A stretch of 64,000 nucleotides of DNA, from NCBI RefSeq assembly GCF_001908375.1, contig NZ_CP017244.1, forward strand, positions 992,001 through 1,056,000, read 5' to 3'. This DNA comes from Rhizobium etli 8C-3. GTDB lineage: Bacteria; Pseudomonadota; Alphaproteobacteria; Rhizobiales; Rhizobiaceae. Below the pieces are notes generated by a model. The model saw only the letters and a list, made by a program, of their open reading frames with translations. It did not search any database and had not been told where the DNA came from. The position numbers and the translations under genes were made by a program. Below, one piece after another: positions 47,850 through 58,319 of this stretch (position 1 is its first letter; every line of letters begins with the position of its first letter).

Positions 47850-48047
47850 AGTTGCCTCCTGATGATGAAAACAATCTAGCCGCGATTGATTACAATCTAA
47901 TGTAACTGCGACGGCGAAAAGATGGCCACACAGCCGCCGTTGGTCATCAGCCGCATTCAAGAATGTGCGAACCGGCCACCCTTGCGTCGATGCCGTTTTC
48001 GAAGATGAGAATGCACGGCTGTGCAAAAAACTCTCGTCGGGCCTAGT

Positions 48048-48065
48048 TTGTCATCTCGATGTCAC
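48048..48065 (+). promoter_or_regulatory. Candidate PHO box before the importer/diesterase operon
   Basis: TTGTCAT-CTCG-ATGTCAC: two 7-base direct repeats separated by 4 bases, close to the PhoB consensus CTGTCAT-N4-CTGTCAT (6 and 5 of 7 bases, 6 if the last base is taken as Y). It ends 63 bp before the binding-protein ATG, a normal place for PhoB activation. Confidence 0.6.
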
Positions 48066-48128
48066 GCGTCAGCGTTAGCTAGCTCCATCAGCCACGCGCG
48101 GTGCGGCTGTGAACGAATGGAGAGGGTC

Positions 48129-49274
48129 ATGAATAGACGCGAGTTTCTTGTCACATCGTCGGCAGCTGCAGCTCTGTTGGCCGCGCCGCGTCTTGCCGCC
48201 GCAGCAACGACGACGATCGATCTCTACAGCGGCTCCGACGCCAATATCGTCGACTTCTGGAACAACATCGTCCGTCCGGCTTTCGAAAAGGCCCATCCGG
48301 ACGTTGCCTTGAAGGTCACTGACGCCGGCGACAATACCGGCTTGCGCGCCATTGCCGATCGAGCCCTGGCGGCTCTACAGACTAAGACCGATCCGCAGGC
48401 AGACATATTCGAGACCTTCGATCCGCGCCTGCCCACGGGTGGGATCGACGCCGGTCTTTGGGTCAAGTTCTCTGCAGAGAACATCGAAGGCTTCGACCGC
48501 GTCAATCCACTGAGCGTCGACAGCCAATATTCACTTCCCTACCGCGGCTCGCAGGTTCTTCTCGCCTACGACAAGTCCAAGCTCGATCCAAAGGATGCGC
48601 CGAAAACCTGGGAACAGCTGGTATCGTGGATCAAGGCCAATCCGGGCCAGTTCATCTACAATCGTCCCGACAAGGGCGGTTCAGGCGGCAATTTCGTCCG
48701 CCGCGCCATTCACGAGGCAAACGGCCGCGATCCGAAGAAATTCACGATCGACAACTTCTCGGCCGATTACGCCACCCAGACCCTGACGCCTGCCTGGGCG
48801 ATCCTCAACGACCTTGCGCCGTCGCTCTATGAAAAAGGCGCCTATACGGCTGGCAACACGCAGTCGATCCAGCTTCTGGCGCAGGGCGTCGTCACCATGA
48901 CGCCGGTATGGTCGGACCAGGTCCTGCAGGCGATCTCGCAAGGCGTCTTGCCCGAAACGACCGGTGTCGTTCAGCTCGGCGACCTTGCCCTTTGCGGCAA
49001 TTTCTCGCGCATGACGGTATTTTCGATCGGCGCGCACAAGGAGGCGGCCCTGAAGCTGGCCGCCTTCGTGCTCACAAAGGAGATGCAAGAGGCGATCATC
49101 ACCGAGATCGGCGGTTTTCCAGGCATCTCCTGGGACCATATCTCCGATGAACTGCGCCAGAAATATGCCGATGTCGTCCCGGCAACCATCCCCACTTTTC
49201 CGAGTGGCGATTGGGAGCCTGCCATCAACGACGGCTGGTACCGCAGCGTCGCGCCAGGCATTGACCGTATCTAA
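48129..49274 (+). CDS. ABC importer, substrate-binding protein with twin-arginine signal
   Basis: A 381-residue solute-binding protein of the iron(III)/spermidine-type family 1, which also includes binders of sugar phosphates and phosphonates. The N-terminus MNRREFLVTSSAAAALLAAP has the twin-arginine pattern RREFL, so export by Tat is likely. The mature part begins near ATTTIDLYSGSDANIVDFWN and includes WEQLVSWIKANPGQFIYNRP. The ATG at 48129 follows GAGAGGG; the frame upstream to 48021 holds the PHO box. First gene of a five-gene operon with two permeases, an ATPase and a glycerophosphodiesterase. Confidence 0.9.
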   Translation: MNRREFLVTSSAAAALLAAPRLAAAATTTIDLYSGSDANIVDFWNNIVRPAFEKAHPDVALKVTDAGDNTGLRAIADRALAALQTKTDPQADIFETFDPRLPTGGIDAGLWVKFSAENIEGFDRVNPLSVDSQYSLPYRGSQVLLAYDKSKLDPKDAPKTWEQLVSWIKANPGQFIYNRPDKGGSGGNFVRRAIHEANGRDPKKFTIDNFSADYATQTLTPAWAILNDLAPSLYEKGAYTAGNTQSIQLLAQGVVTMTPVWSDQVLQAISQGVLPETTGVVQLGDLALCGNFSRMTVFSIGAHKEAALKLAAFVLTKEMQEAIITEIGGFPGISWDHISDELRQKYADVVPATIPTFPSGDWEPAINDGWYRSVAPGIDRI

Positions 49275-50164
49275 TGGGCAAGGATTTTGCGCTACCATCG
49301 CTGGCGCGCTGGCGCGCACCAGCCGCCAGGAGCGCTTCGGCAGGGCTTCTTCTCGTCGCCCTGCCGGTGCTTCTGCTGGCCTGGCTGATCGTCTACCCGA
49401 TCATCGCCGCTGTCGTCGGAACGGTCTTCGTGCACCAACCGGACGGCGCTACTGTCTTTTCGCTTGCCTCCTACCGCTTTTTCTTCAGCGATACCTACAG
49501 CCTCGCCAATCTTTGGCTTACGCTCTGGACGACGCTGGTTTGCGGCGTGCTGCTTCTCGCCACGGGACTGCCGATCGCACTCTATCTGCGCTTTTCGCAG
49601 GGACGGCTGGCAGCTTATGTCCAGGGCCTGGCAATCTTTCCGATGTTCGTCCCGTCGATCATCCTCTCTTATGCTCTTATCCGCACGATTGGTCCGAACG
49701 GCACGATCGACATCCTTCTGAACGCGACCGGCCTGCCAAAGCTGCCTTCGCCATATCTGACGCCCTGGGGGCCGGTGATTGGCCTTGTCTGGGACAATCT
49801 TCCGCTCACCGTGCTGATGCTGGCGGCCGGATTGGGCAGTATCCCGAAAAGTTCGATCGAAGCTGCGCGTGATGTCGGTGCCTCTCCGCTGCGGGTCTTC
49901 ATTTCGATCATCCTGCCGCGCATGGGCAATTCGTTTCTTGTCACCACCTCCTTCGCCATCCTCGGCATCTTTTCGTCCTTCACGCTGCCTTATGTGCTTG
50001 GCCCAGCTTCGCCCGAAATGATGGGTCCGTTCATGCAACGCACCTTCTCCGACCTCAACGACCCGCTGAATGCGCTGACGCAGGCGGTGATCACCTTCGG
50101 CTTCTGCCTGGGGTTCGGAATCTTCTATGTTCGATCGATCGCGAAAAACCGGGGCTGCCGATGA
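49274..50164 (+). CDS. ABC importer, permease 1
   Basis: A 296-residue inner-membrane permease with about six segments. The EAA loop is SSIEAARDVGASPLRVFISI (about residues 194-213). Its first base is the last base of the preceding stop codon, and its own TGA overlaps the next start (ATGA), so the block is translationally coupled. The fold is that of the iron/putrescine/2-aminoethylphosphonate permease group. Confidence 0.93.
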   Translation: MGKDFALPSLARWRAPAARSASAGLLLVALPVLLLAWLIVYPIIAAVVGTVFVHQPDGATVFSLASYRFFFSDTYSLANLWLTLWTTLVCGVLLLATGLPIALYLRFSQGRLAAYVQGLAIFPMFVPSIILSYALIRTIGPNGTIDILLNATGLPKLPSPYLTPWGPVIGLVWDNLPLTVLMLAAGLGSIPKSSIEAARDVGASPLRVFISIILPRMGNSFLVTTSFAILGIFSSFTLPYVLGPASPEMMGPFMQRTFSDLNDPLNALTQAVITFGFCLGFGIFYVRSIAKNRGCR

Positions 50165-50988
50165 GCATTGGTACAGATGCGCGTGCGGCAAGAATCGATT
50201 GGGTTGGCATCTTGTTTGCGGCGCTGCTGACCCTGTTCATCGCGCTTCCGCTGATTGTTGTCGGAACCTGGGCCTTTACCGAGGTATGGCGCTATCCCTC
50301 AGTCATTCCGCAGCAGTTCGGGCTGCGCTTTTGGTCGCAGACGCTGTCGCGCTCCGATGTCTGGGAATCGCTTTTCCTCAGCCTTCGGCTGACGGCGACC
50401 GTGACGCTGCTGTCGGCTGTCATCTGCCTGCCGGCAGCTTACGCATTTGCGCGCATGACCTTTCCGGGCAGGAACATCCTGTTTCTCTCCTTTCTTGCTT
50501 CGCACGCCTTCCCGAAGTTCGGACTGCTTGTTGCGATCGCCGGCATCTTCCTGCAGCTTGGGCTGATCAGCACGTTCTGGGGTGTCGTCCTGATCCAGCT
50601 TGTCGGTACCCTTATGCTGATGATCTGGATCCCCGTCGCAGCGTTTCAAAACGTTGACCGGGCCATGGAGGAAGCGGCCCGGGATGCGGGTGCGGCACCA
50701 CTGCGGGTATTCTGGTCGATCACCCTTCCGCAGGCCGCGCCGACAATCGCGGCTGCGCTTCTGCTCACCTTTGTCGGAACCTTTTACGAAACGGAAGGAG
50801 CTTGGCTGATCGGTGCTCCTGAGGTCCGAACCATGCCGGTTTTGATGATCACCTTCATCAACAATCAGATCGTCGTGCAGTATGGCGCCGTCCTCTCGCT
50901 CATGTTGTGGGTGCCGTCCTTCATCGCACTGATGTTTGCCCGCCGTGTCGTTGGAACGGGCGCCTTTGCCCGCGGCTTGGGCGCGTGA
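50161..50988 (+). CDS. ABC importer, permease 2
   Basis: A 275-residue partner permease. The EAA loop is MEEAARDAGAAPLRVFWSIT (about residues 170-189); hydrophobic segments flank it on both sides. It overlaps permease 1 by 4 bp. A 36-bp gap separates it from the ATPase gene. Confidence 0.93.
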   Translation: MSIGTDARAARIDWVGILFAALLTLFIALPLIVVGTWAFTEVWRYPSVIPQQFGLRFWSQTLSRSDVWESLFLSLRLTATVTLLSAVICLPAAYAFARMTFPGRNILFLSFLASHAFPKFGLLVAIAGIFLQLGLISTFWGVVLIQLVGTLMLMIWIPVAAFQNVDRAMEEAARDAGAAPLRVFWSITLPQAAPTIAAALLLTFVGTFYETEGAWLIGAPEVRTMPVLMITFINNQIVVQYGAVLSLMLWVPSFIALMFARRVVGTGAFARGLGA

Positions 50989-51024
50989 CGCGCGGATCGG
51001 GCATGACCCAACGAAAGGTTTGAA

Positions 51025-52104
51025 ATGGCACGCTTGACGATCAAAGGGGTTTCGAAGGCCTTCGGCGCTTCGTTCGCGGTGCGCGATTTCTCGCTCGATG
51101 TCGATGATGGCGAGCTCGTCTGCCTGCTCGGACCATCGGGCTCCGGCAAGTCGACGCTTCTTCGCATGATCGGCGGCTTCGAACGACCGAGTGCAGGCGC
51201 AATTCTCATCGACTCCAAGGATGTTACGACCGTTGCGCCGGAGAAGCGCCCGACAGGGATGGTGTTTCAAAGCCATGCGCTGTGGACCCATATGGACGTT
51301 TTCAACAATATTGCATTCGGGTTGAAGATACGCAGGCTGGCAAAACCCGAGATCAGGGAGCGCGTTGAAGGCGCGCTCGCACTAGTCGGCCTTTCCAACT
51401 ATGCAAAGCGGATGACGACTGAACTTTCGGGCGGGCAGCAGCAGCGTGTGGCGCTGGCGCGCTCGCTCGTGCTCGAGCCGAAGATCTTGCTGCTCGACGA
51501 GCCCTTTGCCAGTCTCGACCAGCATTTGCGCGAGCGTCTGCGGGAGGAGGTGCGCGACATCCAGCAGCGCCTCGGCATCACGACCCTGTTTGTCACTCAC
51601 GGGCAGGACGAGGCTCTAACGCTTGCCGACCGGATCGTCGTCATGCGGGATGGCGGCACCGAACAGATCGGCCCGCCGGACCTTATTTACCGCGAACCGA
51701 AGACCGAATTCGTGGCAGGTTTCATCGGCTCCATGAATTTCGTTCGCCTGAAGATCCGCAACGGGATCAGCAAACATCCAGACTTTTCGCTTGCAGTTCC
51801 TGTCGAAGATGGCGATCTCGTAGTCGCCTTCCGTCCGGAAGCGCTTGTGCTCAGCCCGTCCAAGAAGCCAGGCGCCGGCATCGTGCATCGCAGCATCGAT
51901 TTCGGCACCCACAGGATCATCGATGTCGACCTTGCGGACGGCACGCGGCTCAAGGCCATGACGTCACCGGATGTCGATTGGAAAATGGGCTTTCTTGTGG
52001 AACCTGTAGTCACCGCTTACTTCGCCTTTCGTGACAACAAGCTCGTCCATCGGTCGGACTGCGCCGGCGAACCGCAAACCGATCGGATGCTCGGACATGT
52101 CTGA
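51025..52104 (+). CDS. ABC importer, ATP-binding protein
   Basis: A 359-residue ATPase. Walker A is GPSGSGKST (about residues 36-44), signature LSGGQQQRVALARS, Walker B LLLDEPFASLDQHL and the switch region FVTHGQDEALTLADR, followed by a TOBE domain (FRPEALVLSPSKKPG). AAAGG precedes the ATG. Its last 8 bp overlap the start of the glycerophosphodiesterase gene, tying the enzyme to the importer. Confidence 0.94.
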   Translation: MARLTIKGVSKAFGASFAVRDFSLDVDDGELVCLLGPSGSGKSTLLRMIGGFERPSAGAILIDSKDVTTVAPEKRPTGMVFQSHALWTHMDVFNNIAFGLKIRRLAKPEIRERVEGALALVGLSNYAKRMTTELSGGQQQRVALARSLVLEPKILLLDEPFASLDQHLRERLREEVRDIQQRLGITTLFVTHGQDEALTLADRIVVMRDGGTEQIGPPDLIYREPKTEFVAGFIGSMNFVRLKIRNGISKHPDFSLAVPVEDGDLVVAFRPEALVLSPSKKPGAGIVHRSIDFGTHRIIDVDLADGTRLKAMTSPDVDWKMGFLVEPVVTAYFAFRDNKLVHRSDCAGEPQTDRMLGHV

Positions 52105-52945
52105 CCGCAGGGGGATTGCCATCGAGACAGGTGAGCACAGGACATGGCTGAAATGGCATCGTGGTCATCGCTTCGCCGGCGACATCTCGTTCACGCGCCG
52201 GCGGATTGCCGAAGGCATGTTGCTTGGCGCCAGCGTCGAGATAGATCTCATTCGCTTTTGCGGCGCAGGTTTTGCAGTTCTTCACGATGAAACACTTGAT
52301 CGAGCCACGACGGGCACGGGCCGTGTCCTGGATGCTTCGCAGGAACATCTGCGTGGCTTGCAGCTTCGCGATGATGACGGCATTCCGACAGATCACCCTG
52401 TGATGCTGATCGACGATCTCGGTCAGCTTCTTCTTGCAGGCGAATACGATGAAAATGCCGTCCTGCAGCTGGATCTCAAGGAGGCGTCGACGAATATACG
52501 CGACATCGATATCGCCGCCTTTGCCGCAGCAATATCGCCGGTCGCACGGTCTGTCGTCCTGTCTGGGGGCGATGCTGGAGCCATCGAAAGGCTTTCCCTC
52601 TCAGTACCCGACATGCCGGTCGGCTATGATCCTTGTCACGACGGAGCGATTGAGCGCTTGATCGAAAGCCGCGACTTCGCAGGTTTCGTGGAAAGAGCGC
52701 TGAAGGCATCGCCGCGCGCGCGAATGTTCTATCTCTATTACGAGCTGGTGCTCTTCGCCGACGCTGCAGGCTATGACCTCATTGGTGCCTTCCATCGTGC
52801 TGGCCGCCGCGTCGATGCCTATACCATCACGGCAGCCGTTCCCGAAGTCTTGCCGAAAGTTCGACGGCTTCTTGCGCTCAAAGCGGATCAAATCACGACC
52901 GACGATCCGGTCGGGCTGGAAACGCTTCTGGTCAAACACCTGTAA
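52097..52945 (+). CDS. Glycerophosphodiester phosphodiesterase family protein
   Basis: A 282-residue enzyme of the GDPD family, which cleaves glycerophosphodiesters to glycerol 3-phosphate (or a phosphoalcohol) and the head group. The metal site and catalytic motif are recognisable: HRGHRFAGD, VEIDLIRFCGAGFAVLHDET followed by LDRATTGTG, and LQLDLKEAS. No signal peptide, so it acts in the cytoplasm on imported substrate. It overlaps the ATPase gene by 8 bp (ATGTCTGA). Not a classic UgpQ; the middle region is more divergent, so the head-group preference is open. Confidence 0.88.
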   Translation: MSDRRGIAIETGEHRTWLKWHRGHRFAGDISFTRRRIAEGMLLGASVEIDLIRFCGAGFAVLHDETLDRATTGTGRVLDASQEHLRGLQLRDDDGIPTDHPVMLIDDLGQLLLAGEYDENAVLQLDLKEASTNIRDIDIAAFAAAISPVARSVVLSGGDAGAIERLSLSVPDMPVGYDPCHDGAIERLIESRDFAGFVERALKASPRARMFYLYYELVLFADAAGYDLIGAFHRAGRRVDAYTITAAVPEVLPKVRRLLALKADQITTDDPVGLETLLVKHL

Positions 52946-52952
52946 GCCGAGC

Positions 52953-53777
52953 TCAGTTAAACCCCTGGACAAGCCACGGATGGATCGCGCTGTTTGCGGC
53001 GAGAATATCGCCGTTTGCCGTAACCGGCCCGCCCGAAAAGGCCGAAACCTGCCCGCCAGCCTCTTCGACCAGAAGGACCGACGCGCCATAATCATGCAGC
53101 GAAAGGCCGTCTTCGAAGAAGCCGTCCAGCCGTCCGCATGCCACATAGGCAATCGAAAGTGCTGCTGAGCCCATCCGCCGCACACCTGCGGTATTTCCCA
53201 TCAGCCGCTTGAGCGCGGTGAAATAGGTTTCCTCGCTGACGGCTTTCACTTGTCCTGGAACCGGCAGTCCAGCGCCGATCAGGACGTTTTCGATTTCGCC
53301 GTTCTCGATGCAGCGGATCGGCTCGCCGTTCAGATAAGCGCCGCCTCCGGCCTCCGCGCTGAACAGTTCATCCTGCATCGCATCATAGACGACGCCAGCC
53401 ACGATGCGGCCAGCTTCGACGATCGAAATCGTCATGCCGAAATGCGGGATACCCCAAGCGTAGTTTGTCGTGCCGTCGATCGGGTCGATATAGATGACAG
53501 GCGTGCTTGCCCCGGCGTCACGATTGCCGACGGCCTCCTCTCCTTTGATCGAGTAAGTCGGAAAGGCTTTCGCCACCTCATCGACGATGATTCGCTCGAC
53601 CGAAACGTCGATTTCCGTCTGGTAGTCACGCGGTGCCTTCGACACGATCTCGCTCACGAGCCGCCGCTTTAGCGAGGCGCGGGCGGTTTGCCCCGCTATC
53701 AGGGCCGTATTTGCGAGAAGCATCAGGCGTTGCGAGGCCGCCGGTGACAAGCGCGTTGAGGCTGAGGAGAATGTCAT
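52953..53777 (-). CDS. Inositol monophosphatase family protein
   Basis: A 274-residue Mg-dependent phosphatase of the IMPase superfamily (inositol-1-phosphatase, histidinol-phosphatase, CysQ types). The first metal motif is YIDPIDGTTNYAWGIPHFGM (about residues 95-114), with the upstream Glu of KGEEAVG; the second, usually WDxAAG, is read here as LHDYGASVLLVEEAGGQ, which keeps the Asp. It converges on the GDPD gene with 7 bp between their stops. The AAAGGAGGATTG sequence at 53792-53803 is on the wrong strand; AGAATTCTCC precedes the minus-strand ATG. The context suggests a role in phosphoester use. Confidence 0.88.
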   Translation of the reverse strand: MTFSSASTRLSPAASQRLMLLANTALIAGQTARASLKRRLVSEIVSKAPRDYQTEIDVSVERIIVDEVAKAFPTYSIKGEEAVGNRDAGASTPVIYIDPIDGTTNYAWGIPHFGMTISIVEAGRIVAGVVYDAMQDELFSAEAGGGAYLNGEPIRCIENGEIENVLIGAGLPVPGQVKAVSEETYFTALKRLMGNTAGVRRMGSAALSIAYVACGRLDGFFEDGLSLHDYGASVLLVEEAGGQVSAFSGGPVTANGDILAANSAIHPWLVQGFN

Positions 53778-53831
53778 GGAGAATTCTTAAAGGAGGATTG
53801 CCGACGTCGTTTGAAGCTTTCGCAGAGGCGC

Positions 53832-53849
53832 ATGAAGTTTTTGTGACGC
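53832..53849 (-). promoter_or_regulatory. Weak PHO-box-like element before the IMPase-family gene
   Basis: On the minus strand GCGTCAC-AAAA-ACTTCAT. Spacing and the AT-rich centre fit a PHO box but the second half matches only 4 of 7 bases. It is 55 bp before the ATG. Worth noting because the convergent operon has a better copy. Confidence 0.3.
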
Positions 53850-53898
53850 GGAGGCGCATGGATGCAAACAGGATTGTATTGCTGCGAATAACAATAGG

Positions 53899-53919
53899 CG
53901 GGACGAGGCATTCGTCCCG
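53899..53919 (-). terminator. Terminator-type hairpin after the PhoX remnant
   Basis: CGGGACGA and TCGTCCCG form a perfect 8-bp stem with a 5-base loop, 18 bp past the ancestral stop codon of the PhoX-like pseudogene; a moderately T-rich stretch follows on the minus strand. It could also serve as a bidirectional stop. Confidence 0.55.
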
Positions 53920-53936
53920 GCTAACAAGGTATCGTC

Positions 53937-54441
53937 TCAGACGCCAATCTTGCCGCCGCCGATCTTGGTCACGGCAAGTACAGACGGGCGCTCTGGCATG
54001 TCATCCTTGAAGTCCGGCCATCTGATGGACGATCTTCGTAACAGGATGGACGGCCATGGCCGGCCCAGTCAGCACCGCCGTCGCCGGGATGTTGCACGGC
54101 GACGAAAGCGGTTTCGTCATCCGGGGCAAAAAGCGGACCACTGAGTTCGGCCCCGACCGGGACGCGGAAGAACAGGCGAGAGGCGGCGTGGGCGTCACCA
54201 TCGGTGTCGACAGCCCAAAGGCCGTCAGTGCGGCCGGTGGCCTTGTTGCTATTGCCGTCCGTTGCGACCCAAAGGCGGCTGGCCGAATCGACAGTGCAGT
54301 TGTCCGGCATGCCGAACCAGCCGTTCTTCGAAGTTTCGGTCGAGAAAGTCGCACCGACTTCAGCAACCGAAGGATCCCCGCAACTTCAAAAGCACTTCCC
54401 ATTTGAACGGCCCCCTGGTTTTGGAGCCATTCTAAACTTAG
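53937..54441 (-). pseudogene. C-terminal remnant of a PhoX-family (DUF839) phosphatase
   Basis: Minus-strand pieces in three frames match the end of a PhoX alkaline phosphatase, a secreted Ca/Fe enzyme that releases phosphate from organic esters. In order: RMAPKPGG (frame one, to a TGA), then FEVAGDPSVAEVGATF and KNGWFGMPDNCTVDSASRLW, VATDGNSNKATGRTDGLWAV and FFRVPVGAELSGPLFAPDDE (frame two), then RWPDFKDDMPERPSVLAVTK ending KIGGGKIGV and TGA at 53939-53937 (frame three). The N-terminal two thirds, including the catalytic part, are absent and at least two frameshifts remain, so it is dead. Confidence 0.88.
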
Positions 54442-55269: not shown

Positions 55270-57012
55270 ATGGCGAATGAAAAATCCGGCCCATCACGGG
55301 CTTTCCTTGTGGCGGTGCTATTTTCCCTCAAGCGCGCTTTTCTGGGTGTCGGAGCAACGAGCTGCATTGTCAACATATTGGCGCTCACCGGCTCCTTCTT
55401 CATGCTGCAGATCTATGATCGGGTGATTCCGGGTCGAAGCCTGCCGACACTTGCCGGGCTTGCGATCATTGCAGCAACGCTCTTCATCTTCCAGGGATTG
55501 CTCGACTTTATCCGCTCGATGCTTTTGATGCGGGCCGGAGGCGCTGTCGACGAGCGTTTGGGAGGCGACGTCTACAACTCCCTGATCCTGTTGCCCTCAC
55601 GGATGCGAATGCCGGGCGACGGTCTCCAGTCGATCCGCGATCTTGATACCGTGCGCGGTTTTCTCTCAGGTCCCGGGCCAACGGCGCTGTTCGATATGCC
55701 GTGGATGCTCTTTTACATCGGTCTGTGCTTTTTCTTTCACGTCTGGATCGGGGTCACGGCGCTTGCCGGTGCGGTGATGTTGATAGGCCTTACAGCACTC
55801 GCCGAGTACAAATCCCGCAAACCGGCAAAGATCGCCGCTGAGCTTGCCGCGCGGCGGCTGAATCTTGCCGAAGCGACACGGCGCAATTGCGAGGCCGTGT
55901 TGGCCATGGGGTTCGGGTCGTTGCTTGCCGCCAAATGGAGCGACGTCAACAACCAGTATCTTGCGAATCATATCTCGGCGACGACTGTGACGACCAGTCT
56001 GATGTCGATCTCAAAAGTCCTTCGGTTGATGCTGCAATCCGGCGTTCTGGCCGTCGGCGCGATCTTGGTCGTCAGGCAAGAGGCCACGCCCGGCATCATG
56101 ATCGCAAGTTCCATCCTCGTCTCAAGGGCGCTGGCACCTGTGGAGCTTGCTATCGGACAATGGAAGGCCTTTGTCGCCGCCCGGCAAAGCTGGAGCAGAC
56201 TGACGACCTATCTGGAACTGCTGCCGGGCGAGAAGCGGCATGTCGACCTGCCTGCGCCGACCGCGAACCTGTCCGTGGAAGCGCTCCACCTTGCCGTTCC
56301 TGGTAACCGCACGATGGTGCTGCGGGCGATCTCCTTCAGGGCGCAGGCCGGAGACGCTGTCGGCGTCATCGGGCCGAGCGCATCGGGAAAATCCTCGCTT
56401 GCCCGCGCACTTGTCGGCCTTTGGAGACCAGTCGGCGGCGCGGTGCGTCTCGACAAGGCGTCCCTTGATCAGTGGGACCCGTCATCGCTTGGCCGGTCGA
56501 TCGGCTATCTCCCGCAGGAAGTGTCGCTCTTTGAGGGCTCAATTGCCGAAAATATCGCTCGTTTCGACACGGATGCCCCGTCCGAGAAAGTCATCGCAGC
56601 TGCGAGAGCTGCGGGTGTCTACGAGATGATCGTGCAGCTTGCCGATGGCTTCGATACCCAGATCGGCGAAAACGGATCGATGCTTTCGGCCGGGCAGCGT
56701 CAGCGGATCGGCCTGGCGCGCGCGCTTTATGGCGATCCTTTCCTTGTCGTCCTGGATGAGCCGAACTCAAACCTCGACAGCGATGGCGAGGCAGCGCTCG
56801 CTCAGGCAATCGCAGGCGTCCGGGCACGAAAGGGCATTGCCATCGTAATTGCTCACCGACCAAGTGCATTGGCGGCAACCAATCTCGTTCTGGTACTCGC
56901 CAATGGACAGCTTCAGGCCTTCGGGGCGAAGGACGAGGTTCTCAATAAGACAACGGTTACGACGGCTCCGCGCAGTAGCACGCTGACGGTTATCGCGGGA
57001 GGCGACAGTTGA
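55270..57012 (+). CDS. prsD: Type I secretion ABC permease/ATPase, PrsD/PrtD type
   Basis: A 580-residue inner-membrane exporter subunit with an N-terminal transmembrane domain (about residues 20-310) and a C-terminal ATPase. Walker A is IGPSASGKSSLARALVGLW (about 365-383), the signature is LSAGQRQRIGLARALYGDPF and Walker B is LVVLDEPNSNLD, the NSNLD form typical of the PrtD branch. It would export RTX proteins lacking a cleaved signal. In Rhizobium, PrsDE exports EPS glycanases and Rap proteins. The ATG follows GGAG; its TGA overlaps the prsE-like start (TTG/ATG region) by 4 bp. The symbol is by similarity of type, not proven orthology. Confidence 0.9.
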   Translation: MANEKSGPSRAFLVAVLFSLKRAFLGVGATSCIVNILALTGSFFMLQIYDRVIPGRSLPTLAGLAIIAATLFIFQGLLDFIRSMLLMRAGGAVDERLGGDVYNSLILLPSRMRMPGDGLQSIRDLDTVRGFLSGPGPTALFDMPWMLFYIGLCFFFHVWIGVTALAGAVMLIGLTALAEYKSRKPAKIAAELAARRLNLAEATRRNCEAVLAMGFGSLLAAKWSDVNNQYLANHISATTVTTSLMSISKVLRLMLQSGVLAVGAILVVRQEATPGIMIASSILVSRALAPVELAIGQWKAFVAARQSWSRLTTYLELLPGEKRHVDLPAPTANLSVEALHLAVPGNRTMVLRAISFRAQAGDAVGVIGPSASGKSSLARALVGLWRPVGGAVRLDKASLDQWDPSSLGRSIGYLPQEVSLFEGSIAENIARFDTDAPSEKVIAAARAAGVYEMIVQLADGFDTQIGENGSMLSAGQRQRIGLARALYGDPFLVVLDEPNSNLDSDGEAALAQAIAGVRARKGIAIVIAHRPSALAATNLVLVLANGQLQAFGAKDEVLNKTTVTTAPRSSTLTVIAGGDS

Positions 57013-58319
57013 TCGACAAGCGAGCTCCCATTTCCGAAGCTGCAATCGGCCGCCTTACGACAATCGCGCTGGCGATGGTCCTGCTTCTGATCGGTGTGGT
57101 TGGAGGCCTTGGAGCCACGACCTACCTCTCCGGCGCGGTGATTGCGAACGGCACGCTTGTCGTCGACAGCTATGTGAAGCCCGTTCAGCATCAAAAGGGG
57201 GGTACTGTCGGGCAGATCTTCGTCAAAAACGGCGGGCTGGTTGAGGCCGGGCAGATCCTCGTGCATCTGGACGATACGCAATTGCGGGCAAACCTCGCAA
57301 TCATCTCGCGGCGACTGAACGAACTGTCGGCAACCTCTGCCAGGCTGGGCGCCGAACGGGACGGCGTTGGGGAGATCGGGTTTCCCCAGAACCTGTTGCA
57401 GCAGGCGGTCGAAGCTGGAGATGGCGGCATTATCGAAGGCGAGCGCAGATTGTTCGAAGATCGCCGGACATCGCGAGCCAGCAGAAAGGCCCAGTTGCGC
57501 CAACGCATCCAGCAATTGCGGCAGGAAGCGGAGGGACTGGTTGCCCAGCAGACCGGCAAGAAAGCGGAAATGGCGCTGATCGACAAGGAGCTTGCGAGCG
57601 TCAGGCGACTGTTCGACCAAGGTATCGTGCCCGTCAACCGCCTCTATGCCCTTGAACGCGAGTCCGCGCGCCTGAAGGGCGAACTCGGCAGCCTCGTGGC
57701 AAGCGTTGCGCAGACGAACGGTAAGGTGACCGAGACGGAATTGCAGATCATTCAGATCGATGACGATCACCGCAGCGAAGTATCGGACGAACTGCGCAAG
57801 ACCCAGAGCGACATCGCTGAATTCTCCGAACGAATGGTCGCCGCAAGAGACGAATTACGGCGCGTTGACATCCGGGCGCCTCAGACAGGTGTCGTCCATC
57901 AGCTTATGGTCCACTCCGCCGGCGCCGTCGTTCCGCCCGGTGAGCCGATCATGCAGATCGTGCCCGCCCGCGATACGCTGACGCCCGAAGTCCGCGTCTT
58001 ACCTCAAGACATCGATCAGCTATCCATCGGCCAAGAGGTCAGGTTGAGATTTTCTGCCTTTAACCAAAGGAATACGCCCGAAATCAACGGCATCGTGCAG
58101 CAGATTGCCGCTGATCTGACGACGGATCGTGAGAGCGGCTCGACCTACTATGCGGTCCGGATTTCGGTTGATCAGAGCGAATGGAGCCGATTGGGTAGTC
58201 TTGTGCCCGTCCCCGGCATGCCAGTGGAAGCATTCGTGCAAACAGGTGCGCGTACTGCTCTTGCCTATCTGACGAAGCCTCTGACCGACCAGGTGGCACG
58301 CGCGTTCCGGGAGGACTGA
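57009..58319 (+). CDS. prsE: Type I secretion membrane-fusion protein, PrsE/HlyD type
   Basis: A 436-residue adaptor linking the inner-membrane exporter to an outer-membrane TolC-type channel. One membrane segment lies at about residues 17-40 (IALAMVLLLIGVVGGLGATT), then a lipoyl half motif (VKPVQHQKGGTVGQIFVKNG), a long coiled coil (about 95-280) and the second lipoyl/barrel part (VDIRAPQTGVVHQLMVHSAG). Translation appears to start at the TTG/TTGATC region at 57009, overlapping the prsD stop by 4 bp. The TolC partner is not in the window. Confidence 0.91.
   Translation: MIDKRAPISEAAIGRLTTIALAMVLLLIGVVGGLGATTYLSGAVIANGTLVVDSYVKPVQHQKGGTVGQIFVKNGGLVEAGQILVHLDDTQLRANLAIISRRLNELSATSARLGAERDGVGEIGFPQNLLQQAVEAGDGGIIEGERRLFEDRRTSRASRKAQLRQRIQQLRQEAEGLVAQQTGKKAEMALIDKELASVRRLFDQGIVPVNRLYALERESARLKGELGSLVASVAQTNGKVTETELQIIQIDDDHRSEVSDELRKTQSDIAEFSERMVAARDELRRVDIRAPQTGVVHQLMVHSAGAVVPPGEPIMQIVPARDTLTPEVRVLPQDIDQLSIGQEVRLRFSAFNQRNTPEINGIVQQIAADLTTDRESGSTYYAVRISVDQSEWSRLGSLVPVPGMPVEAFVQTGARTALAYLTKPLTDQVARAFRED

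Follow-up and report, generated by a model that had tools for sequence, protein, structure and literature searches.

A putative Pho-regulon cassette for the import and cleavage of phosphodiesters in Rhizobium etli 8C-3

What is the substrate of an ABC importer whose binding protein is named after spermidine and putrescine, and whose genes run into a gene for a phosphodiesterase? This question is raised by a locus at positions 48048..54441 of a 64,000-nucleotide stretch of Rhizobium etli 8C-3 (contig NZ_CP017244.1, positions 992,001 to 1,056,000; hereafter the window). Genes for a solute-binding protein (SBP), two permeases, an ATPase and a GDPD-family enzyme follow one another there and face a gene of the inositol monophosphatase (IMPase) family. 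Organic phosphodiesters represent a substantial share of soil phosphorus, and the catalogue of importers for the intact compounds is poor. Our analysis confirmed the locus first observed from the letters of the window as real, and it indicates that this is likely a Pho-regulon phosphorus-scavenging cassette, which would import an intact phosphodiester and free its phosphate through two enzymes. An initial annotation had proposed a phosphate-controlled system for glycerophosphodiesters, possibly glycerophosphoinositol, and that interpretation is supported in part. Our literature searches, which covered open-licence papers only, found no paper on this cassette. The host genome is that of a Rhizobium (7.3 Mb, 4 contigs).

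The gene neighbourhood is retained well beyond the host. Among named genomes in GTDB, a scan yielded 188 confirmed relatives of the GDPD; the neighbourhood sample consists of the best 80, the importer being counted as present when at least three of its four genes lay upstream. The importer precedes the GDPD gene in 68 of these 80 related loci (all four genes in 66), while an IMPase gene lies at most 3 kb downstream in 62, with 60 of the latter belonging to the 68 importer loci. Gaps between the GDPD and IMPase genes are below 100 bp in 53 of the 62; the IMPase gene is convergent in 46 and co-directional in 16, and a second one was present elsewhere in the same flanks in a single locus of the 80. 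In the related loci L031-L040 (L numbers denote individual loci), all five genes from SBP to GDPD occur in 10/10 and the IMPase gene is next in 9/10, L032 being the exception. Identical gene order was also found on annotated plasmids of Ketogulonicigenium, Alloyangia and Rhizobium sp. WL3. The nearest named GDPD matches belong to Rhizobium gallicum and relatives (92% identity, on 2.3-2.5-Mb replicons), those of R. mongolense being 91-92% identical. Inside the operon of the window, SBP and permease A overlap by 1 bp, the two permeases by 4 bp and ATPase and GDPD by 8 bp, and 7 bp separate the GDPD stop from the convergent IMPase gene. The importer and GDPD had initially been regarded as one unit, with an 8-bp overlap and a PHO-like element 63 bp before the operon; the coordinates were verified and the unit is retained both in L031-L040 and in the larger sample. 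The association of the IMPase gene, set beforehand as a refutation test, was upheld by the 62 loci mentioned above.

Some loci depart from this arrangement. L110 and L132 carry the IMPase gene without this importer; in L110 (Rhizobium tibeticum) a different ABC importer lies about 2 kb upstream of the GDPD gene and the IMPase is seemingly in two pieces. In Roseinatronobacter a CehA/McbA-type metallohydrolase occupies the IMPase place. A replacement phosphatase was also considered for the loci lacking IMPase and was rejected, the six downstream frames scanned giving GntR, LysR, FMN dehydrogenase or nothing; a different metallohydrolase stands there in one case only, L055.

Phosphate control had been proposed from two PHO-like elements, and it is supported by their conserved position and by matrix and shuffle statistics. 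In 10 of 11 loci (the window and L031-L039; L040 has none) the importer box lies at -66 to -83 and matches the consensus at 12-13 of its 14 positions. A PHO matrix was built from 11 sites in pst and phn promoters of relatives, the phnC-locus training set having given few sites. The sites were chosen with a PHO-box consensus, which biases the matrix towards it; for this reason, permutation of the matrix columns and sequence shuffling served as controls. The best score exceeded the 95% level of random stretches in 75% and the 99% level in 44% of the 68 importer upstream regions; for the 46 convergent IMPase genes the values were 59% and 22%. When each 80% identity group was represented by a single sequence, 10/16 importer and 10/18 IMPase promoters reached P ≤0.05 against dinucleotide shuffles. 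Mean best scores of 7.94 (importer) and 8.23 (IMPase) surpassed all 200 column-permuted matrices, the highest of which gave 4.09 and 5.04, respectively. The neighbourhood and promoter statistics exceed chance. In the window, the IMPase box, which had been described as the weaker one, matches the matrix better than the importer box (P 0.016 vs 0.053 against random stretches; 0.015 or 0.039 for the IMPase box against shuffles). A count of exact TGTCA-N6-TGTCA sites was discarded as proof of PHO boxes, because eight sites in 7.3 Mb versus five for a control pattern say little.

A conserved palindrome, a probable operator, precedes the PHO-like box. With at most one mismatch, TTGCAC-N4-GTGCAA was found in 35 of the 68 SBP upstream regions vs 15 of 2000 random 280-bp stretches drawn from these loci, and WTGCAC-N4-GTGCAW occurs only twice in the host genome. 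The palindrome recurs in several loci of Devosia and Agrobacterium. The other genomic site (L198 1501-1516, G000 contig C1) lies 29 bp before a frame for a CpdB-type 2',3'-cyclic phosphodiesterase/3'-nucleotidase with a Tat signal. A regulon shared with cpdB was not accepted: of 24 cpdB rows, 18 had a start that could be located, and two of these carry the site (host genome and G016).

As regards the enzymes, the GDPD-family protein belongs to the GDPD fold and is called divergent because its PF03009 score barely passes the cut-off (26.0 vs 23.6 bits), the best stretch covering residues 61-91 only. H21, E48, D50, H63 and K128 are invariant in 41/41 sequences and R22 is nearly so; by alignment to 2pz0, we take these to be the catalytic set of two His, Arg, Glu, Asp and Lys known from GDPD structures. 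A Glu as third metal ligand and an ENT motif are typical of the family. The window protein has D126 at the position of that Glu, again invariant in 41/41, and lacks the ENT motif, which is present in the AccF-type, pAt and UgpQ-type proteins compared. We read these features as the mark of a divergent subfamily and not as grounds to exclude the protein from the GDPD family. In seven Gordonia/Aldersonia loci (L143, L152, L155, L156, L162, L165, L172) the same subfamily occurs at 51-53% identity with neither importer nor adjacent IMPase gene, which looks like separate use or transfer.

The facing phosphatase scores 179.8 bits with PF00459 (cut-off 27) and its translation contains the metal-site motifs GEE, DPIDGT and HD; the host genome has eight IMPase-family genes. 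In a tree of 76 rows, the locus IMPases form two well-separated clades. One of 37 rows includes Rhizobium (with the window), Rhodobacterales, Pannonibacter and Aureimonas, and the other of 29 rows comprises Devosia, Agrobacterium and Rhizobium sp. WL3, while acc-type and R. etli IMPases fall outside both. Since the locus IMPases split in this way, their pairing with the cassette probably arose at least twice.

These data suggest the following course. At low phosphate, as the sites imply, PhoB would activate the importer operon and also, as a separate unit, the IMPase gene opposite it. The SBP begins with MNRREFL, which we take to be a twin-arginine (Tat) signal and whose two arginines are invariant in 33/33 aligned SBPs. 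Exported in folded form, it would bind a small periplasmic phosphodiester, which would then enter whole through the ABC transporter. The co-translated GDPD, for which family, fold and most catalytic residues are established, would then act in the cytoplasm, splitting the diester into an alcohol and a phosphomonoester, and the phosphatase, of IMPase family, could finally remove the phosphate. An export signal is apparent on the SBP and none on GDPD or IMPase, and thus intact import followed by cytoplasmic cleavage appears to be the simplest reading. The canonical GDPD product, glycerol 3-phosphate, enters metabolism directly. A dedicated phosphatase was paired with the cassette more than once, which makes glycerol 3-phosphate an improbable phosphomonoester product; rather, the phosphate would be left on a non-glycerol moiety, as an inositol or sugar phosphate.

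Several observations weigh against a Pho-controlled phosphodiester cassette. A PHO box is present in the importer promoter of the window, but taken singly it is marginal by matrix (the above 0.053 against random stretches, 0.08 or 0.099 against dinucleotide shuffles), and it rests on its conserved place, not on its score. The importer occurs without IMPase in 8 of 68 loci (L100, L105, L115, L137, L144, L158, L153, L168); L153 and L168 end at a contig end close after the GDPD gene, leaving six real absences. Neither importer nor IMPase was found in ten loci, namely L120, L123 (a short contig), L130 and the seven from Gordonia/Aldersonia; the GDPD gene lacks both partners in two Rhizobium loci as well as in all seven of the latter. 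The 29-row IMPase clade joins a non-locus IMPase of the host genome with weak support (96/72), and the deep joins of this tree are uncertain because long branches were flagged. Lastly, the predicted structure of the SBP (AlphaFold2, mean pLDDT 84.0) retrieved iron, dinucleotide, sugar, spermidine and UgpB binders among its top matches, a result that does not decide the ligand.

The locus can be compared with several known systems. The agrocinopine (acc) operon, AccABCDE-AccF-AccG, likewise joins an ABC importer with GDPD-family and IMPase-family enzymes in one unit. According to a published account, the operon takes up agrocinopine and is controlled by AccR; AccF cleaves agrocinopine A, giving sucrose and arabinose-2-phosphate, and AccG is a phosphatase (PMC4526662). 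In our dataset L068 shows the acc-type arrangement, with two ATPases, beside an agrocinopine synthase gene, and its enzyme genes presumably correspond to AccF and AccG. The acc system differs in its AccA-type SBP of the oligopeptide family and its two ATPases, whereas the window has an SBP_bac_8 protein and a single ATPase; the acc GDPD subfamily is distinct, the IMPases share only 26% identity over 222 positions, and AccR contrasts with the PHO-type sites. From these comparisons the locus would work like acc but, because its transporter family differs, is not a member of it. In pAt2788b (L067) a sugar-type ABC transporter accompanies GDPD, IMPase and an aldose epimerase. In the R. etli-type cassette (L042-L051) the GDPD falls into the same broad subfamily (33-35% identical) and, in R. 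etli, faces an IMPase gene; an IMPase-family match lies near the GDPD gene in 9/9 of L042-L050. The R. etli version differs by an oligopeptide-type ABC transporter, a second ABC transporter of sugar type, a canonical GDPD, a LacI regulator and an aminotransferase. The logic common to this locus, acc, pAt2788b and R. etli is an importer with GDPD and IMPase, served by differing transporters.

Because the GDPD is divergent and a GDPD-IMPase pair serves agrocinopine, a sugar phosphodiester, we predict sugar phosphodiesters to be ligand candidates as good as glycerophosphodiesters. We tentatively propose, as a possibility below even chance, that the locus is a non-opine counterpart of the agrocinopine pathway, with a Pho-controlled importer, its own GDPD subfamily and phosphate left on an inositol or sugar moiety, so that an IMPase is needed. 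If so, such phosphodiesters would be a common unrecognised phosphorus nutrient of soil and marine Alphaproteobacteria, and ABC transporter, GDPD and IMPase would form a general module with interchangeable transporters, acc being one specialised offshoot in design. The retained enzyme pair yields a directly testable substrate prediction and connects the ordinary phosphorus nutrition of rhizobia with the logic behind opine catabolism.

An alternative of fairly low probability is a general importer of glycerophosphodiesters (glycerophosphocholine, -ethanolamine, -glycerol), in which the IMPase would act on glycerol 3-phosphate or have a side role. It would be an analogue of Ugp (UgpBAEC with UgpQ), a phosphorus-compound importer accompanied by GDPD and Pho-controlled in E. 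coli. GDPD coupling and Pho-type sites fit such an importer, and the general chemistry is seen in the host from three other GDPD-family genes of its genome; these were the three matches listed by a profile search, and the window GDPD was absent from them. The repeated pairing with IMPase is nevertheless left unexplained, the GDPD belongs to a divergent subfamily without ENT motif, and the curated cut-offs of three Ugp components are missed (UgpA 29.4/335, UgpE 23.9/297, UgpC, by the ATPase, 303.7/432 bits).

Glycerophosphoinositol, the substrate suggested initially, is one candidate among several, and a dedicated importer for it seems unlikely. GDPD would release inositol and glycerol 3-phosphate, or glycerol and inositol 1-phosphate, with IMPase completing the pathway. 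The enzyme pair suits this scheme, PF00459 is named for inositol phosphatases, and phosphatidylinositol products occur in plant-root soils. On the other hand, IMPase-family proteins act on many monoesters, and the window protein remains below the cut-off of the inositol-1-monophosphatase equivalog NF008027 (158.7 vs 332 bits). Moreover, inositol genes were not found in the annotated neighbourhoods of R. etli, Ketogulonicigenium, Alloyangia, Rhizobium sp. WL3 and Roseinatronobacter, and the canonical GDPD product would require no IMPase.

Source names of related SBPs read "putative spermidine/putrescine transport system substrate-binding protein", and the default labelling that had been anticipated is borne out. 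An importer of polyamines, iron or 2-aminoethylphosphonate with incidental GDPD and IMPase would suit these names, an SBP WSD segment that resembles polyamine binders, and the best curated ATPase scores (PhnT2 334, PotA 314.2 bits), but it is highly improbable given that every curated cut-off is missed (PhnT2 457.7, PotA 482, ferric ATPase 289/496, PhnT 266/499.15, 2-aminoethylphosphonate SBP profile 23.6/310 bits) and that both enzymes persist in divergent loci and PHO-type sites are present. The cassette is widespread, as its 188 confirmed GDPD relatives indicate, and since many of its SBPs carry the polyamine label, counts of polyamine uptake and of phosphorus uptake in genome surveys would both be wrong. 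The S. meliloti operon SMc04316-SMc04317 can be likened to it by published description, which gives a Pho box and strong induction at low phosphate despite an iron-transport label (PMC8829014).

The coordinates of all features are collected in Table 1.

Table 1. Features of the locus, in window coordinates.
Feature	Coordinates	Strand	Evidence
Conserved palindrome ATGCACGGCTGTGCAA, probable operator, 21 bp before PHO-like box	48011..48026	.	promoter comparison
PHO-box-like direct repeat TTGTCAT-CTCG-ATGTCAC, 63 bp before SBP start	48048..48065	+	conserved position
SBP, twin-arginine signal, SBP_bac_8, distant YnjB-like	48129..49274	+	ORF, Pfam, alignment
ABC permease A, BPD_transp_1	49274..50164	+	ORF, Pfam
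ABC permease B, BPD_transp_1, 4-bp overlap with permease A	50161..50988	+	ORF, Pfam
ABC ATPase, ABC_tran	51025..52104	+	ORF, Pfam, curated profiles
Divergent GDPD-family phosphodiesterase	52097..52945	+	ORF, Pfam
IMPase-family phosphatase (Inositol_P), convergent with GDPD	52953..53777	-	ORF, Pfam
PHO-box-like element GCGTCAC-AAAA-ACTTCAT before IMPase	53832..53849	-	aligned block in orthologues; matrix
PhoX remnant, C-terminal end only	53969..54433	-	profile matches; full-length open frame here in L093, L094, L095

Beside the IMPase gene, the initial annotation had recognised a dead PhoX phosphatase, and a C-terminal remnant is indeed what is found, the frame being intact in near relatives. 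The remnant covers profile positions 430-515 of 515, or 404-515 with one internal stop. At this place, an open PhoX frame spans 672-684 codons in R. mongolense (L093), R. mongolense subsp. loessense (L094) and R. sullae (L095). On either side of the remnant the flanking DNA aligns with L093 and L094 (86-92% identity), and about 1.5 kb is absent in between; a deletion of that size left the remnant. An intact PhoX is present elsewhere in the host genome, and in Alloyangia (L157) another PhoX precedes the importer. The PhoX neighbours in L093-L095 and L157 favour the phosphorus-scavenging reading. Finally, further along the window, positions 55270-58319 (+ strand) hold genes for an ABC exporter-like ATPase and a membrane-fusion-like protein, which, from a reading of their translations alone, resemble a type I secretion pair.

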